From NCBI GenBank assembly GCA_031268995.1, contig JAIRWK010000049.1:1-37271 (forward strand): a DNA stretch of 37,271 bases, read 5' to 3'. The DNA is from Planctomycetaceae bacterium (GTDB lineage Bacteria > Planctomycetota > Planctomycetia > Pirellulales > Thermoguttaceae). The notes under the pieces were generated by a model. That model ran no database searches and was not told the DNA's origin. It saw only the letters and a list, made by a program, of their open reading frames with translations. Below are positions 7,603-31,608 of this stretch, one piece after another (position 1 is the first letter of the stretch; each line of letters opens with the position of its first letter). The position numbers were made by a program, and so were the translations under genes.

Positions 7603-8559
7603 ATGAATCAATTTACCGGATTTATTTTTGGCGACGTTGACAAACCTGAATTTCGATTTTTGCGTGGTTCGGTTTTTGATTTTATGCACAAAATTTTTGT
7701 TGGCAATGAGAATATTTTTTGTTGCGGCGAGCCGGATGTGGTCGTGATTGCCCAAAGTTATCCGAATCAATTTTCTCAGGATTTTTTGTACAATATTTTG
7801 AGCTATTGGTCAATTGTTCCGGTGATATTGTTGTCTGGTGTTGGTTGTGTTGGCGAGTTGCGGACGGGCAAGCCGTTGGCGGGTTGTTTTCGGCTTTACG
7901 TGCATGAATGGAACGAGTTTTGGTACGATCAACTAAAACGTTACGCCAAAAATAATAAATCTGTTTTTGATCTTCCTCGTACTTATTGCGACGATGAAAT
8001 TTTTCTTGACGCGGCAAAAAATTATTCGTCTTATATTTTGCCCAATCCAATAAATACCAAAGTTGCCCCAAAACATCAGAAACGAAACAACCAACCGCCA
8101 AACACAACACCGAAAAATATACCGACACCGGTATGGGCGGTAGGCTTCGCCCCTGAACAACCACTTCGCGATGCTACGCTTGCGTGTTCAGCTTCAGGAA
8201 TTTTAAAACAGCTTGAGTATAATAATGCCGCGAATAATATTTGTTTGATTGTTTCGGGCGAAGGTGTACTTGGCAATGATTACACGATGAATAAACTTCT
8301 CGCAGATTACGCAACTTCACGCGGTTATAGTTGTGTATTTAATTGTCAAAATCTACCTATTCAACCCAAACTTGTGTTAATTGACACGGATGATTCGGGA
8401 ATTGAGTATATTGTGGAAAGCGTTCAAAGATTGAGGCGTTTTTTTGCCGATTCTGAATTTAACGTTTATATCAATTCTCCCCGATTTAGCGAGGTTGAGG
8501 CTTTGTTTGGAGTTGGTGTTGACGATGTGATTTCCAAGCCTTTTTTTTGGATGCCGTAG
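7603..8559 (+). CDS. Receiver-like protein carrying an in-frame A element
   Basis: About 318 residues from ATG 7603 (MNQFTGFIFGDVD). An upstream in-frame ATG at 7552 abuts the family E hairpin and is less likely. The N-terminal half has PDVVVIAQSYP, VPVILLSG, GELRTGKPLAG and FRLYVHEW; the C-terminal part reads LVLIDTDDSGIEYI then DDVISKPFF, a pattern like a degenerate response-regulator receiver (acidic pocket, late Lys). No kinase or output domain is visible. Bases 8118-8221 are a complete family A element translated in frame (WAVGFAPEQPLRD, ATLACSASGILKQLEY), adding 34 codons between the two parts. The stop TAG at the end also comes from an A fragment. The function is unknown. It sits 284 bp before fliG, so a flagellar link is possible but unproven. 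Confidence 0.65.
   Translation: MNQFTGFIFGDVDKPEFRFLRGSVFDFMHKIFVGNENIFCCGEPDVVVIAQSYPNQFSQDFLYNILSYWSIVPVILLSGVGCVGELRTGKPLAGCFRLYVHEWNEFWYDQLKRYAKNNKSVFDLPRTYCDDEIFLDAAKNYSSYILPNPINTKVAPKHQKRNNQPPNTTPKNIPTPVWAVGFAPEQPLRDATLACSASGILKQLEYNNAANNICLIVSGEGVLGNDYTMNKLLADYATSRGYSCVFNCQNLPIQPKLVLIDTDDSGIEYIVESVQRLRRFFADSEFNVYINSPRFSEVEALFGVGVDDVISKPFFWMP
8120..8219 (-). mobile_element. Family A element inserted in frame within a CDS
   Basis: A 100-bp copy, TACCGACACCGGTA to GCTTGAGTA, with TA on both sides (8118-8119, 8220-8221). With one TA duplicated the net addition is 102 bp, exactly 34 codons. It has no stop in the used frame. Confidence 0.88.
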
Positions 8560-8843: not shown

Positions 8844-9845
8844 ATGGCATCGAATAGTATTCGCAAAGCTGCAGTTTTCCTGATCAGTATTCCAAAAGAT
8901 CAGGCTAAAATTATTTTGTCGCGTCTTGATCCGAAGCAGATTGAGGTTGTGATGACTGAGATTGCGAAGATCGGCATTGTAACGCCTGAGGAACAAGAAA
9001 ATGTTATTCGGGAATTTTCTAAAGCCAATCCGGCGAAATTAGTTGGTTCTGTTGGCGGATTTAGTGTTGCGACGGAGTTGGCGGAGGCGGCGTTGGGTCA
9101 AGATGGTCTTGCGGTGATTGATGGTGTTCGCAGTTCGCTTGAAGCGATACCGTTTGGATTTTTGCAAAAAGTTGACAGTGAAAATTTATTGACATTTATA
9201 ATTGACGAGTATCCGCAAACGATTGCGCTTATTGTTGCGCATCTTCGTCCGTCGCAAGCAGCGGATATAATTAACGGTCTGCCGCCGGAAAGACAACTAA
9301 CTGTCATAAGACGAATCGCGGCTATGCAACAAACAAACCCCGAAATAATAAAAGATGTGGAAAAAGGCTTGGAAAACAGAATGTCAAGCGTGATGAGTCA
9401 AAAACTTGAGAGTGCCGGCGGAGTCGGAAGTGTTGCGGAAATTTTGAATGTTATTGACAGATCAACAGGACGGACAATCATGGAAAATCTTGCACAAGAT
9501 GATCCTGAATTGGTCGAAGAAATAAGACGCTTAATGTTCGTGTTCGAGGATATTCTCAAGTTGACGGACAAGGATATTCAAGAAATCCAAAAAAACGTCG
9601 AAAACAACCAATGGGCAATCGCACTCAAAGGCGCAAGCGAAGACCTCAAACAAAAAATATTCAAAAATATGTCAAAACGCGCCGGAAAAATGTTGCAAGA
9701 AGAAATGGATTTTTTGGGTCCTATGCGATCATCTGATGTCGAACGTGTTCAACAAGAAATCGTTGATGTCATAAGAAAACTAGAAGATTCAGGAGAAGTT
9801 ACAGTACATTCCGGCAAAGGCGGCGAAGAAAAATTCATACAGTAA
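8844..9845 (+). CDS. fliG: Flagellar motor switch protein FliG
   Basis: A 333-residue protein, normal for FliG, which forms the rotor ring with FliM and FliN beneath the basal body MS ring and couples stator force to rotation. Visible features are the N-terminal domain (IRKAAVFLISIPKDQAKIIL), the middle-domain motif DEYPQTIALIVAHL corresponding to the EHPQ motif (here EYPQ), LPPERQLTVIRRIA, and the C-terminal charged torque helix region (VFEDILKLTDKDIQEIQKNV followed by ALKGASEDLKQKIFKNMSKR). PMRSSDVERVQQEIVDVIRKL closes the protein. The start is ATG 8844, with only a weak AGG upstream. No other flagellar gene is next to it, so fliG is isolated from the usual fliF-fliG-fliH cluster. Confidence 0.97.
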   Translation: MASNSIRKAAVFLISIPKDQAKIILSRLDPKQIEVVMTEIAKIGIVTPEEQENVIREFSKANPAKLVGSVGGFSVATELAEAALGQDGLAVIDGVRSSLEAIPFGFLQKVDSENLLTFIIDEYPQTIALIVAHLRPSQAADIINGLPPERQLTVIRRIAAMQQTNPEIIKDVEKGLENRMSSVMSQKLESAGGVGSVAEILNVIDRSTGRTIMENLAQDDPELVEEIRRLMFVFEDILKLTDKDIQEIQKNVENNQWAIALKGASEDLKQKIFKNMSKRAGKMLQEEMDFLGPMRSSDVERVQQEIVDVIRKLEDSGEVTVHSGKGGEEKFIQ

Positions 9846-9982: not shown

Positions 9983-10086
9983 TATACCGAAGCCGGTATG
10001 GGCGGTAGGCTTCGCCCATGAACAACCGCTTCACGTTGTTGCGCTTGCGTGTTCAGCTCCATGAATTTTAAAATAGCTTGAGTATA
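9983..10086 (-). repeat. Family A element
   Basis: A full copy, TATACCGAAGCCGGTATGGG to AATAGCTTGAGTATA, with the AACAACCGC...GTTGTTG stem. It lies 24 bp from the stop codon of the VIT-VWA gene. Confidence 0.92.
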
Positions 10087-14715: not shown

Positions 14716-14854
14716 TATACTCATAGCACTATGAAATTCAGTTTTTATTTTTTCGACAGGATTTAACAGGATAGCAGGATATACAGGATTTTATTATATC
14801 CTGACAATCCTGTAATCCTGTCTCAAAAAGATGAATTTCATCGTAGCTACAATA
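14716..14854 (-). repeat. Family B element
   Basis: Begins TATACTCATAGCACTATGAA, has the CAGGAT arms (GACAGGATTTAACAGGATAG) and opposing arms (ATCCTGACAATCCTGTAATC), and ends ATGAATTTCATCGTAGCTAC. A short A copy follows without a gap. Confidence 0.9.
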
Positions 14855-14898
14855 TATACTCAAGCTGTTTTAAAATTCCTGCTACCGGCTACGGTATA
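14855..14898 (+). repeat. Family A element, internal deletion
   Basis: TATACTCAAGCTGTTTTAAA then CCTGCTACCGGCTACGGTAT: both ends without the central 60 bp. It abuts a B element. Confidence 0.85.
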
Positions 14899-16622: not shown

Positions 16623-16726
16623 TATACCGAAGCCGGTATGGGCGGTAGGCTTCGCCCTTGAACAACCGCTTCACGTTGTTGCGCTTGCGTGTTCAGCTTC
16701 GGGAATTTCAAAACAACTTGAGTATA
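16623..16726 (-). repeat. Family A element
   Basis: A full copy, TATACCGAAGCCGGTATGGG to ACAACTTGAGTATA, lying 29 bp past the UbiA-family stop codon. Confidence 0.92.
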
Positions 16727-17524: not shown

Positions 17525-18454
17525 TTATTTGGGGTTGGCGTGTACTTTGCAAGCTGGTTTTGCACTCTTAAATTCAGCAACTCCTGCCGCCGTAACGTTT
17601 GTGTCTCGTAAAGCAAGCATCGTCAATAAAGTCATTTGCTCAAAGTATTGGAAAGATTCATCGGACAAATCAGGACAACTAAAGACAATGAAAATTTTAA
17701 TTGAATTATTCTTGCTCATTATCTCGATATGTTTGTCCGTCAATGCAACATTAGAAAAGTAAACTGATTCTAATTGAAGTTCTGAAATAGCCGATGCAAT
17801 TTGATCTGTCATTAGTGGAGTGTCCGCAATCCCAATGTTTCTCAATTGCGGATTGGCTTCAAGAAATTCAATAAATGCTTGCTCTGAAATTTTTGTGGAA
17901 ATTTTCAAGTTAATAGAGATTAAAGATTTATCTCCTGTGATCTGTAATAATTGATGATCTGTAACGGCAACATCGTGAAGCCCAAGGTGCTCTAGCCCTT
18001 TACAGTTCAATAACACATCTGCCAATAAATCCGTCATTGTCATGTTATGTATGGTAATATGATTTAAAAACGGTAATTTCGATATTTGGGATATTTTGTC
18101 TATATCTTGCGGAGTTACAGTTACTCCCTTAGCATCAATGTCAATCGTAATTACCTGTTCACGCAGAAGAAAATATAGCGTGGATTGATCCATGTATTGT
18201 TCGGTCGGAATTTTTGTTACGAATATTCCTTTAGTCATATCCAGAGCCAGAGGGCTGTGAAAATATTGGAGAACAGTGCCATTAATTGTGAAACTTGACG
18301 TTTTTAGATTCGCCACAATATACGACTGACGAATATACGGTTCAAAAAAGAAAAAACAGAACGTAAGCACATTCAACACAATCAAAATAAACAAAATCAA
18401 AATGAAATGACTTTTACGAGGTTTGTTGTTATCTTCGGGGACTATTGGGGACAT
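17525..18454 (-). CDS. Leucine-rich-repeat-like membrane protein, paralogue 1
   Basis: About 309 residues. I use ATG 18454 (MSPIVPEDNNKPRKS) because AGGA lies about 10 nt upstream and the same start is conserved in paralogue 2; an upstream GTG at 18508 overlaps that gene's stop. Residues 15-38 form one hydrophobic anchor (FILILFILIVLNVLTFCFFFF) and the rest is probably extracytoplasmic. From residue about 95 there are LRR-like units of the type MTMTDLLADVL, AVTDHQLLQI, LTDKHIEIMS and NVTAAGVAEFKSA, spaced about 24-26 residues, as in cysteine-containing or bacterial LRR ladders. The end is FKSAKPACKVH. The gene lies 50 bp downstream of its paralogue, in tandem. Function is unknown; protein binding is likely from the fold. 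Confidence 0.75.
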   Translation of the reverse strand: MSPIVPEDNNKPRKSHFILILFILIVLNVLTFCFFFFEPYIRQSYIVANLKTSSFTINGTVLQYFHSPLALDMTKGIFVTKIPTEQYMDQSTLYFLLREQVITIDIDAKGVTVTPQDIDKISQISKLPFLNHITIHNMTMTDLLADVLLNCKGLEHLGLHDVAVTDHQLLQITGDKSLISINLKISTKISEQAFIEFLEANPQLRNIGIADTPLMTDQIASAISELQLESVYFSNVALTDKHIEIMSKNNSIKIFIVFSCPDLSDESFQYFEQMTLLTMLALRDTNVTAAGVAEFKSAKPACKVHANPK

Positions 18455-18504
18455 GTTAAAAATTCCTGTTAAATTTTTTATCACGAAAAACACGAAAGGC
18501 TCTA

Positions 18505-19398
18505 TCACTTCACATCACCATCTACTGCACAAGCTGGTTTTGCACTTTTAAATCCGGCAACTCCAGAAGACGTAACACTTGTACCGTACAAATTGAGCCA
18601 ACTCAATGACGGCATTCTCTTAAAATATTGTAAGGAGTCATCTGATATGTGAGAGCAATCAGAGAGTAAAATAATCTTGACAAACCTGCTATTACTCATT
18701 ATCTCAATATGTCTATCTGTTAATGATCTTTCGCCTAATGAGATGATTTCTAATTTTGGGAGTCTTGAAATTGTCAATGCAATTTGATCGGTCATTGGTA
18801 TAGCATTCTTACTGTCAATTCCAATCAATTGCGGATTGGCTTCAAGAAATTCAATAAATGCTTGCTCTGAAATGTTTGTAGAATTTTCTAGGCGGAAATT
18901 TATTAGAGAGCTGATTTTTCCAAGCTGGCGAAGTTGGTGATCTGTGATTACTACATTATCTAGGGCAAGGGAATTTAATTTTTTATAATTCCGCAATGCC
19001 TCTATAAGTGAATCCGTCATAGTCATGTTGCTCATGTGAACATTACATAAAAAAGGCAATTCCGATATTTTGGATATTCTGTTTATATCTTGCGGAGTTA
19101 CAATTATTCCTTTGCCGTTAATAACAATCGCACTCACTCTTTCACACTGAAAAAAATATGGTACGGCTGGATTGCGCGTTCCGTACCCTATAAACCTATT
19201 CCCCAACAATCCATAAGTCTCGTACTCAACTTTTAAATTTGAGGAATTAATTTCCCTCATAATATTCGCCTGACGGACATACGGTTCAAAAAAGAAAAAA
19301 CAGAACGTAAGCACATTCAACACAATCAAAATAAACAAAATCAAAATGAAATAACTTTTACGAGGTTTGTTGTTATCTTCGGGGACTATTGGGGACAT
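18505..19398 (-). CDS. Leucine-rich-repeat-like membrane protein, paralogue 2
   Basis: A 297-residue tandem paralogue of the preceding gene. The leader (MSPIVPEDNNKPRKSYFILI, then one transmembrane segment) and the DNA around its start are almost identical to paralogue 1 over about 130 bp, while most of the ectodomain is much more diverged. LRR-like units again carry the T-D/T-S signature (MTMTDSLIEALR, VITDHQLRQLG, LTDRHIEIMS, SVTSSGVAGFKSA). The block around ISEQAFIEFLEANPQL is also near identical in DNA. The mosaic of near-identical and diverged blocks suggests gene conversion. It probably shares a transcript with paralogue 1. Confidence 0.75.
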   Translation of the reverse strand: MSPIVPEDNNKPRKSYFILILFILIVLNVLTFCFFFFEPYVRQANIMREINSSNLKVEYETYGLLGNRFIGYGTRNPAVPYFFQCERVSAIVINGKGIIVTPQDINRISKISELPFLCNVHMSNMTMTDSLIEALRNYKKLNSLALDNVVITDHQLRQLGKISSLINFRLENSTNISEQAFIEFLEANPQLIGIDSKNAIPMTDQIALTISRLPKLEIISLGERSLTDRHIEIMSNSRFVKIILLSDCSHISDDSLQYFKRMPSLSWLNLYGTSVTSSGVAGFKSAKPACAVDGDVK

Positions 19399-20799: not shown

Positions 20800-20903
20800 T
20801 ATACTCAAGCTGTTTTAAAATTCCCGAAGCTGAACACGCAAGCGCAACAACGAGAAGCGGTTGTTCAAGGGCGAAGCCTACCGCCCATACCGGCTACGGT
20901 ATA
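20800..20903 (+). repeat. Family A element joined to a D element
   Basis: A full copy, TATACTCAAGCTGTTTTAAA to ACCGGCTACGGTATA, immediately followed by GCACGCAGAT of family D, as at 27664. Confidence 0.93.
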
Positions 20904-24406: not shown

Positions 24407-24541
24407 TATACCGTAGCCACTATGAAATTTATCTTTTTAAGACAGGATAACATGATTACAGGATTGTCGGGATATAAAAAAATCCTGTCTATACTGTTAT
24501 CCTGTAAATCCTGCCAAAAAAATAAAACCAGCTACGGTATA
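24407..24541 (+). repeat. Family B element
   Basis: Begins TATACCGTAGCCACTATGAA, has GACAGGATAACATGATTACA and ATCCTGTAAATCCTGCC, and ends AAACCAGCTACGGTATA. The right end lacks the usual GAATTTCATAG and looks A-like. It is the uninterrupted reference for the nested copy at 5847-6061. Confidence 0.9.
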
Positions 24542-26094: not shown

Positions 26095-26240
26095 GCACGC
26101 AGATGACTATGAAATCCAATTTTTTGGTGCAGGATTACAGGATTGTCAGGATATAATAAAATCCTGTCTATCCTGTTATCCTATCAAAAAAAGATGAATT
26201 TCATAGTAGCTTCGGTATAAAATCCGTGTTGTTTATCTGC
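26095..26240. repeat. Family D element interrupted by a B element
   Basis: The left arm TCAGCACGCAGATGAC (26095-26106) and right arm AAATCCGTGTTGTTTATCTG (about 26219-26240) are those of family D. A B element sits between them. Confidence 0.7.
26107..26219 (+). mobile_element. Family B element nested in D
   Basis: Starts CTATGAAATCCAATTTTTTG (terminal TATACCG missing), has CAGGATTACAGGATTGTCAG and ATCCTGTCTATCCTG, and ends TTCATAGTAGCTTCGGTATA. Confidence 0.8.
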
Positions 26241-28423: not shown

Positions 28424-29048
28424 TGCCTTTTCGTGATAAAAAATTTAACAGAAGTTTTTAACATCTCCCAAATAGTCCCCGAAGATAACAACAAACCTCG
28501 TCGAAGTCATTTCATTTTGATTTTGTTGAATGTGTTTGCTTTCTGTCTTTTCTTTTTTCATCCGTATATTCGTCAGTCGAATACTATGAGGGAATTGAAT
28601 TCATCAAATTTAAAAATTGCGTACGTCACTTATGGATTGTTTGAGTCATGGTTTAGGGATTCCATAATACACGCTCCAACCGTACCATATTTTTTTTCAG
28701 TGTGCAAAAGTAATTCTGATTTCGATTAACGGCTATGATGTAATTGTAACTCCGCAAGATATAAACATAATATCCAAAATATCGGAATTGCCTTTTTTGA
28801 GTAGTGTTCGCATAAGCAACATGACTATGACGGATTCACTTGATATTGAGATAATAAGTAGTAGCGGGTCTATCGAGACTATTTTTATCAATAATTGCCC
28901 GTATATATCAGATGGCTCATTTCAATATTTTAAACGAATACCATTATTAGGGGGGCTTTCTTTGCTCGACACAAGCGTTACACATTCTGGACTTACTGGA
29001 TTTAAGAGTGCAAGACCAGATTGTTTTGTATCAAGTGATGTGAGGTGA
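28424..29048 (+). pseudogene. Decayed third copy of the leucine-rich membrane protein
   Basis: A decayed copy of the tandem pair at 17525-19398, in the opposite orientation. Similarity starts in the 5' flank (TTTTCGTGATAAAAAATTTA). The start codon has become ATC (AACATCTCCC against AACATGTCCC). A run of seven T in paralogue 2 is eight T here (28690-28697), which shifts the frame after VPYFF; removing one T restores FFQCAKVILISINGYDVIV. A deletion of most middle repeats joins MTDSL to DIEIIS. The ends FKSARPDC and the 3' flank are kept. It is probably not functional. Confidence 0.85.
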
Positions 29049-29102
29049 TAGAGTCTTTTTGTGCTTTTTGCGTTAAAAATTATTCATCGACTGGCATATT
29101 TT

Positions 29103-30929
29103 TTATTCTTCGCTTCCGTATTTAATGGTTTCTTGATTTATTTTTTTTACGTCGTCTATTGGTATTTTTAGTATTGCGCGATCATACGTCATGATGCCGT
29201 TGATTTCGGATTCGACATCCGTGAATTGATGAAAAACCGCACCGGAAAGCCCCTTCTCTATCATTGCCCTCAATTCAACATTCATCTTTTTATATTTAGA
29301 CAACAACGCCTCCGAATCTTTGACATGACTGTAGCCCCACGTTTTTGTTGTCCAAAGATGCTCCGGCGAAGTAACTAACGTAATACCGCCAAAAGAACCA
29401 ATCACACCACAACGAAAATTGTCCATTATCGGCGGCTCCGGTCCCGGAAATTCATGATTGTCCTTCAAATCACCAATGTCAAAATCACGCCAACCACTCG
29501 CGGCATTAACTAAACGAGTTCGATCAAGTTGCCTTACCAATTTTACGTATTCCGCTGTTTTGTGTTGTCCTAAACCTTCGTTGAACAGAGACCAAATAAT
29601 AATAGACGGATGACGCGCTCTTGAATTTATCATGCGTTGTAATTCATGGCGAAATATTTTTTGCGATTCGTTAGTACGGTTTTCTCCACACGGCATATCT
29701 TGCCAAACCAATATCCCAACACGATCACACCAATAATACCAACGCTCCGACTCAACCTTCAAATGCTTACGAATCAAATTAAAACCCATAGATTTCGCCG
29801 TCATTATATCCGATTTCATCGCCTCATCACAAGGCGGCGCATAAAGCCCATCACACCAATAACCTTGATCAATAATCCCCATTAAAAAAACAAATTTATC
29901 ATTCAACCTAATACGCATCCTGCCTTGAGAATTTTTTGCCAAATCAATTTTTCTGAACGCCGTATAACTACTAACTTGATCAATCGGCACACCACGCTCC
30001 AACAATTGCACGCGAATTTGATACAGAAACGGCGAATCCGGACTCCACAACTTCAACTTGCCCCGCGGAACCTTCAACATCGTCCGACCATCAACTCCGC
30101 CAAACGCCTCAACCAATAACTCATCACCGCCAAACACCTCAAAACGTAACGATAACTCCGGCTTCGGATTTTCAATCAACGGATGAATCGCCAGAATACT
30201 TCGATCAATATCTGTTGTGATGTCAAGAGATTGAATGTAATTTTTTGTAACTGGCTCAATCCAAACTGTTTGCCAAATTCCGGTTACAGATTGGTATTGT
30301 GTACCGGACGGGAGAGTTGATTGTTTACCTCGCGGCTGTTCGCCGTTATTGGTTGGGTCAAAAACACAGACCACGAGTTCGTTTGCTTCTTCACGCGATG
30401 TTTTGACGTAATTTGTTATGTCAAAATAAAACGGATCATAAGCTCCTTGATGTTTACCCACAAATTGCCCGTTCACATACACCGCCGCCTCCCAATCAAC
30501 CGCACCAAAATGTAACAAAATACGTTGATCATTTTGCCATGCCGGAGGAATTTTGAACAAACGTCGATAAGCAATCCGATCAAAAGATTTGCCCACACCT
30601 GAAAGCGAAGACTCTATCGGAAACGGCACAAGTATATTGCCGCCAAATTGCCCATCTTTTGCAAAAGAAAAAGGAGATTCTTTGTTGTCCGCCAATGTTG
30701 CCGAAGCATTGATCTGTTTCCATTCCCATGTACCATTCAAGTTCAACCAATCCCGACGCACCAATGTTGGACGCGGATAATCAGAATGAACACGGTCGGG
30801 CAATACACCTTTGCTCCAAGCCGTCATCAATTTCGGAACTAACGTTTTATCATCCGGCAAAGAATCCGCACTTTGTACAATTCCCACCGTAATAAACGTT
30901 ACAAAAATTACAGCAAAAAATAAATGCAC
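29103..30929 (-). CDS. Glycoside hydrolase family 2 protein with altered nucleophile motif
   Basis: About 608 residues from GTG 30929 (read MHLFFAVIFVTFITVGIVQS), which gives a signal peptide. The longer reading to ATG 31094 adds 55 residues from a family A repeat and is unlikely. GH2 layout: sugar-binding domain (NLNGTWEWK, DRIAYRRLFKIP, LLHFGAVDWEAAVYVNGQFV, GIWQTVWIEPV), Ig-like domain, and a catalytic barrel (GFNLIRKHLKVESERWYYWC, WQDMPCGE, IIIWSLFNEGLGQ with acid/base Glu451, GAVFHQFTDVESEINGIMTY). The nucleophile motif, G-E-F-G-G in the relatives I know, reads GSFGG (Ser512), so ordinary retaining catalysis is doubtful. It is probably a periplasmic protein for plant or host glycans, active or as a binding protein. 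Confidence 0.85.
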   Translation of the reverse strand: MHLFFAVIFVTFITVGIVQSADSLPDDKTLVPKLMTAWSKGVLPDRVHSDYPRPTLVRRDWLNLNGTWEWKQINASATLADNKESPFSFAKDGQFGGNILVPFPIESSLSGVGKSFDRIAYRRLFKIPPAWQNDQRILLHFGAVDWEAAVYVNGQFVGKHQGAYDPFYFDITNYVKTSREEANELVVCVFDPTNNGEQPRGKQSTLPSGTQYQSVTGIWQTVWIEPVTKNYIQSLDITTDIDRSILAIHPLIENPKPELSLRFEVFGGDELLVEAFGGVDGRTMLKVPRGKLKLWSPDSPFLYQIRVQLLERGVPIDQVSSYTAFRKIDLAKNSQGRMRIRLNDKFVFLMGIIDQGYWCDGLYAPPCDEAMKSDIMTAKSMGFNLIRKHLKVESERWYYWCDRVGILVWQDMPCGENRTNESQKIFRHELQRMINSRARHPSIIIWSLFNEGLGQHKTAEYVKLVRQLDRTRLVNAASGWRDFDIGDLKDNHEFPGPEPPIMDNFRCGVIGSFGGITLVTSPEHLWTTKTWGYSHVKDSEALLSKYKKMNVELRAMIEKGLSGAVFHQFTDVESEINGIMTYDRAILKIPIDDVKKINQETIKYGSEE

Positions 30930-30944
30930 AAACCTGATTTCAAT

Positions 30945-31048
30945 TATACCGCAACCGGTACGGGCGGCAGGCTTCGCCCTTGAACAACCGCTTCGCGGTG
31001 CGATACTTGCGTGTCCGACTCCGTGAACTTTAAAGTAGCTTGAGTATA
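30945..31048 (-). repeat. Family A element
   Basis: TATACCGCAACCGGTACGGG to AAGTAGCTTGAGTATA. The loop of the terminal hairpin is CAAC, while the TACCG/CGGTA stem is kept. Confidence 0.92.
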
Positions 31049-31239
31049 ACATATACTGTACTGCTAAAACCATATCAAAACCGACATTGGGCAAAATCTA
31101 CCATTTGTATTGGCGTTGGCATAAATCATTTCTTGTCCTAGATTCTCCAACAACTCTTGACTTAATTCAATCGGTCTGATATGGTATCCGAAACAAATAT
31201 CATTGTCAATAGCAGTAGTTTTTTGTTGATAAGTTTTGT

Positions 31240-31342
31240 TATACCGAAGCCGGTATGGGCAGTAGGCTTCGTCCATGAACAACCGCTTCACGTTGTTGCG
31301 TTTGCGTGTCCAGTTCGGGAATTTTAAAACAGCTTGAGTATA
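31240..31342 (-). repeat. Family A element
   Basis: TATACCGAAGCCGGTATGGG to AACAGCTTGAGTATA, full length. Confidence 0.92.
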
Positions 31343-31408: not shown

Positions 31409-31542
31409 TATACCGTAGCTACGATGAAATTCATCTTTTTGAGACAGGATTACAGGATATAATAAAATCCTGTGTATATCCTGCTATCCTGTTAAATCCT
31501 GTCAAAAAAATAAAAACTGAATTTCATAGTGATATGAGTATA
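31409..31542 (+). repeat. Family B element
   Basis: Begins TATACCGTAGCTACGATGAA and ends GAATTTCATAG, GATATGAGTATA, with GACAGGATTACAGGATATAA and ATCCTGTTAAATCCTGTC between. This is the cleanest example of the long inverted ends of family B. Confidence 0.92.
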
Positions 31543-31608
31543 CAATAATACCGTTTGAAAAGTTATCAAATTCCGTCCCTAACAGGATGCAACAATAATA
31601 GAAATTTT

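Follow-up and report, generated by a model that had tools for sequence, protein, structure and literature searches.

In a Planctomycetaceae genome, a short and very abundant repeat (herein the A element) lies in frame within a gene upstream of fliG and would add 34 residues to that gene’s product; copies that leave the reading frame open recur in conserved genes elsewhere in the same genome. We strongly favor the explanation that a selfish MITE inserted across the genome and that frame-breaking insertions were subsequently lost, so that loops and linkers would now contain translated peptides that the proteins tolerate. The window, i.e., the whole stretch of DNA that was analyzed, comprises 37,271 nucleotides (contig JAIRWK010000049.1), and its main features are collected in Table 1.

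Table 1 Coordinates of the host gene, the A element copy that it carries and further A elements in the window
Feature	Position	Strand	Basis
Host gene: two predicted receiver-like alpha/beta domains and a disordered linker holding the insert	7603..8559	+	translation, orthologues, structure model, Foldseek
A element (IS630-type MITE), full-length 104-bp copy, in frame	8118..8221	+	nhmmer model 1-104, 108.5 bits; consensus
Left TA, copy of the target-site duplication	8118..8119	.	TA at both ends in 132/167 full-length copies; single TA in empty IS630 paralogues
Left terminal inverted repeat TATACCGACAC (family consensus TATACCGAAGC)	8118..8128	+	consensus; IS630 left end TATACCGTAGC
Right end AAAACAGCTTGAGTATA; the genome's IS630-family remnants have an identical right end	8205..8221	+	end comparison
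Right TA, copy of the target-site duplication	8220..8221	.	as for the left TA
fliG, conserved neighbor used for orthology	8844..9845	+	Pfam FliG_N/M/C; 21 related loci
Full-length A element, intergenic	9983..10086	+	nhmmer model
Full-length A element	16623..16726	+	nhmmer model
Full-length A element, intergenic	20800..20903	-	nhmmer model
Full-length A element, 103-bp form	31240..31342	+	nhmmer model

An earlier note on this DNA had described a complete A element with TA on each side inside the host gene, adding 34 codons with the frame kept and no stop, and both parts of that description were borne out. The segment at 8118-8221 matched the family profile over its full length (108.5 bits, E 7e-32 using nhmmer) and its exact sequence is a 104-bp family member, TATACCGACACCGG...CAGCTTGAGTATA, with TATA at each end. 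The T of the first TA occupies codon position 3 and, with one TA counted as target duplication, the net gain is 102 bp; the 34 inserted codons (8119-8220) correspond to residues 173-206 and translate to IPTPVWAVGFAPEQPLRDATLACSASGILKQLEY. The ORF at 7603-8559 (318 residues, 284 bp upstream of fliG) is open throughout. The observation as a whole was thus confirmed, and it represents one case of a genome-wide pattern.

Residues 173-206 are absent from the orthologues in nine related genomes, all of which lie at the same place next to fliG, and DNA similarity to two of these orthologues restarts at 8219 or 8221, which is the right edge of the A element. A base-by-base empty site could not be aligned between the host gene and its relatives because the linker is too diverged. 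Apart from the insert, the linker of the window protein is also ~11-20 residues longer than those of its relatives, so the A element accounts for 34 of the extra residues and not for all of them. Comparison of the host gene with its nearest orthologue gave 65, 48 and 94 differences at codon positions 1, 2 and 3, respectively, which points to coding constraint. An AlphaFold model based on ten aligned proteins (mean pLDDT 67, i.e., modest overall confidence) predicted two alpha/beta domains at about residues 1-143 and 209-315, and pLDDT fell below 50 at residues 144-208, the stretch containing the insert. Foldseek matched the model to response-regulator receiver domains (e.g., PhoB and CpxR) and to the two-receiver protein PleD; a Pfam search of the host protein returned no match, so the receiver-like fold is read from the structure model alone. 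At this modest confidence, both the “receiver-like” label given previously and the placement of the peptide between the two parts of the protein hold, in that the model puts the insert in a disordered linker between two receiver-like domains. The extra peptide probably lengthens this linker with little effect. One orthologue has a 47-codon extra segment of its own (L047:5182-5330), which was tried as a second element and rejected, being single copy in that genome; it lies at a different place from the A insert.

The source genome is a metagenome assembly (MAG) of 4.19 Mb in 438 contigs, 86% complete and related to Planctomycetaceae metagenome bins, which, to judge by their names, may originate from termite guts. 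Our main sample consisted of 99 contigs (803 kb) picked by number and not by content, and it contained 518 copies of the A element, equivalent to 645 per Mb and 6.0% of bases, from which a total of about 2,700 copies per genome was extrapolated. Full-length copies numbered 326, the commonest lengths being 103 bp (122 copies) and 104 bp (96 copies), and most copies of the element are intergenic. The window itself holds 18 matches and a first sample of 376 kb held 237, while a shuffled control sample gave none. At a first look, about 2,003 candidates were found in the source genome versus at most 118 in 20 others of the genus, and a search of 19 genomes outside the genus gave no match; the burst of the A element is, on these counts, lineage-specific. 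One further copy in the window (30945-31048) overlaps the start of a 663-aa minus-strand ORF (29103-31094), whose start codon is probably misassigned. Elsewhere in the window, two adjacent paralogous genes (17525-19398) have a third copy at a distance of about 10 kb (28424-29058) that is inverted and broken; the copies are 75-91% alike.

The ends of the A element link it to the IS630 family. TA was found at both termini in 132 of 167 full-length copies, and the terminal inverted repeats of the consensus (TATACCGAAGCCG and TATACTCAAGCTG) are short and imperfect, with 10 of 13 positions alike. Remnants of IS630-family (DDE_3) transposases are present in the same genome, and those with a readable 3’ end terminate in TCTAAAACAGCTTGAGTATA, about 110 bp past the DDE_3 match; the right terminus of the A element, TTTTAAAACAGCTTGAGTATA, is identical to this end over 17-18 bp. 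At the left, the IS630 end TATACCGTAGC and the A element end TATACCGAAGC have TATACCG(A/T)AGC in common. One IS630 copy (L087) holds an A element that its sister copies lack, and comparison of the empty paralogues (GTACTC-TA-CTAAC) with the filled copy (GTACTT-TA...TA-CTAAC) showed, at this one paralogous site, a single TA converted to a TA on both sides. In addition, a composite of 343-345 bp, in which the left part of an A element is joined to the 3’ end and right end of the IS630 transposon, occurs with different flanks at three loci (L089:1402-1744, L088:1398-1740, and L090:570-914), and it seems from this that an A-element left end and an IS630 right end are able to move together. Judged by its TA ends, the shared terminal sequences, the L087 site and the composite, the A element is an IS630-type MITE: short and non-autonomous, with many dispersed copies of fixed ends, inverted repeats, TA duplication and IS630-shared ends. 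An intact matching transposase was not found in the MAG (86% complete), the copies seen being truncated, carrying stops or running off contig ends; since several do the last, an intact gene may simply be missing from the assembly. In L087, the IS630 transposase gene has an internal deletion, and close to the end of this gene the A element (1780-1882) is inserted in frame. The window also contains a second, B-like repeat family (14716-14861, 24407-24510, 26106-26224, and 31409-31543), with ends TATACCGTAGC...ATGAAATTCATC close to the IS630-remnant left end TATACCGTAGCTACTATGAAATTCCTC and often with CAGGATTACAGGAT repeats inside, which is probably another MITE of the same IS630 transposase.

In order to quantify the frame bias, the flanks of each full-length copy in the 803 kb sample were joined by script with one TA kept, and a site was considered genic when it fell within an ORF 200 codons or longer and had at least 40 codons on each side. 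This gave 20 genic sites, 16 of them with a coding-like codon score. Among these 16, the net gain was divisible by three in 14 and the frame was kept open in 12, against an expectation of 7.6% for a random copy in a random phase (binomial p about 5e-11); all nine copies flanked on both sides by 80 codons or more were open. Of the four copies that are not open, two to three are no further than about 72 codons from the assigned start and may in fact precede the gene. Three of the six phases of the consensus are stop-free, one forward (IPKPVWAVGF...) and two reverse (YTQAVLKF... and YSSCFKIP...). Only about 5% of full-length copies are inside such ORFs, which implies that most genic insertions must have been lost or avoided. 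The 103-bp form, which shifts the frame, is about as common as the 104-bp form, and this speaks against the element itself having been selected for compatibility with genes. A first sample, chosen in part for long open frames, had given net multiples of three in 21 of 21 cases; being biased, it was replaced by the contigs picked by number.

Named examples, which come partly from contigs selected for long frames and therefore illustrate the pattern but do not count it, include MiaB, MqnE, HrpA, SbcC (two copies), and a SpoU methylase, each with ~34 residues added, and further predicted fusions in translated ORFs for a metallophosphatase, a polyketide synthase, and an alpha-2-macroglobulin. The insert lies in the radical SAM region of MiaB, within the OB-fold match of HrpA and, in one case, within the metallophosphatase match. 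The check proposed earlier, i.e., whether orthologues lack the 34 residues, came out positive for three genes: the host gene, MiaB and MqnE. In the latter two, the segment is absent in genus relatives and its site is a loop that varies in length among them.

The sequence of events that would account for these data is as follows. A TA-targeting transposase, presumably of the IS630 family, would spread the MITE and duplicate TA at each insertion, so that a 104-bp copy would add 102 bp, a multiple of three, and an insertion in one of the three stop-free phases would allow the consensus to be read through. Selection would then purge gene-breaking insertions while in-frame ones persist in loops and linkers, where the ribosome would translate the element as an extra peptide of ~34 residues with a nearly neutral effect. 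In a more far-reaching version, the net 102 bp and open frames would make the element compatible with genes, and the burst would thereby have supplied insertions to proteins throughout the genome of this lineage, on the order of 60 genes (an extrapolation from 12 in 803 kb), with some peptides now functional parts; this version we regard as unlikely.

Less probable again is that the peptide has been co-opted as a flexible linker, interaction motif or regulatory segment, its sequence being maintained by selection. The same peptide does recur in conserved enzymes and sits between two signaling domains in the host gene; against this, the insertion sites are loops of varying length among relatives, and no excess of synonymous change was found in genic copies. 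Synonymous to non-synonymous changes were 17:100 in 15 genic forward-frame copies versus 272:979 in all other copies (p 0.075, with the difference pointing the other way), a test that is limited by subfamily structure and that, within this limit, did not reveal selection on the peptide sequence. We consider it very improbable that intron-like splicing or ribosome bypass eliminates the element, before translation or in the course of it, to yield a protein without the peptide. The A element folds into stable hairpins, and a MITE within a group I intron has been reported in Thiomargarita (PMC4853749); however, an Rfam search of the window gave no family match, and among genic copies a net gain divisible by three and a lack of stops are strongly over-represented, which argues for translation, given that frame would be irrelevant if the RNA were spliced or bypassed. 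Least credible of all, even with a metagenome assembly fragmented into 438 contigs, is a host pseudogene or an assembly artefact, as the gene has kept its frame, length, neighbor and codon-position bias, the 8118-8221 copy differs from the family consensus at eight positions, and many unrelated contigs carry in-frame copies. Selfish insertion followed by loss of frame-breaking copies hence remains the reading that we prefer.

The textbook example of peptides added to working proteins by mobile DNA is that of the Rickettsia palindromic elements (RPEs), whose mode of movement is unclear. The likeness to RPEs drawn in the earlier note holds as an analogy: RPEs are repeats of about 105-146 bp fused in frame in conserved genes (Ogata 2000, as reviewed in PMC2229807 and PMC10969869), one of which is carried by a Rickettsia guanylate kinase that is translated and active (PMC2229807), and the A element is likewise repeated, in frame in conserved protein genes and absent from orthologues, with a peptide that is apparently tolerated. 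In contrast to RPEs, for which target duplication is listed as unknown (PMC2229807), the A element shows TA duplication and an IS630 partner. No relationship to RPE1 was found, the best genome-wide match to its protein model (NCBIfam TIGR01045) scoring 11.7 bits against a cut-off of 30, and an NCBIfam scan of seven insert-bearing proteins found no RPE family. The 107-bp form of the Correia/NEMIS element of Neisseria, which contains open frames and forms in-frame fusions with other ORFs (PMC2229807), resembles the A element as a ~100-bp MITE with TA ends, terminal inverted repeats and target duplication, whereas the ends (TATACCGAAGC) and internal sequence of the A element look different and its estimated copy number is about 2,700 versus >120 for Correia in N. 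gonorrhoeae (PMC10969869). The enterobacterial RU-1 (ERIC), RU-2, and RU-3 repeats are also small, MITE-like and provide open frames fused to annotated genes (Delihas 2007, PMC2759123); none was located within conserved domains of superfamily proteins (PMC2759123), whereas A element copies were seen inside an HrpA OB-fold match and a metallophosphatase match. IS630-family insertion sequences share the TA target and terminal sequence with the A element and have left DDE_3 remnants in the same genome, but the A element has no transposase gene and only the ends are common to both. The kind of element is therefore already known, and the A element is a new, very abundant case in a planctomycete.

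For annotation, a note of caution follows, as gene callers and protein searches will meet the A-element peptide in unrelated proteins. More broadly, an RPE-like outcome is found here in an unrelated phylum, together with a link to IS630, TA duplication, thousands of copies and empty orthologues for comparison. With the set of A elements, the filtering of genic insertions by selection could be tested quantitatively, and MiaB, MqnE, HrpA and the other carriers may serve as natural insertion mutants of these enzymes.
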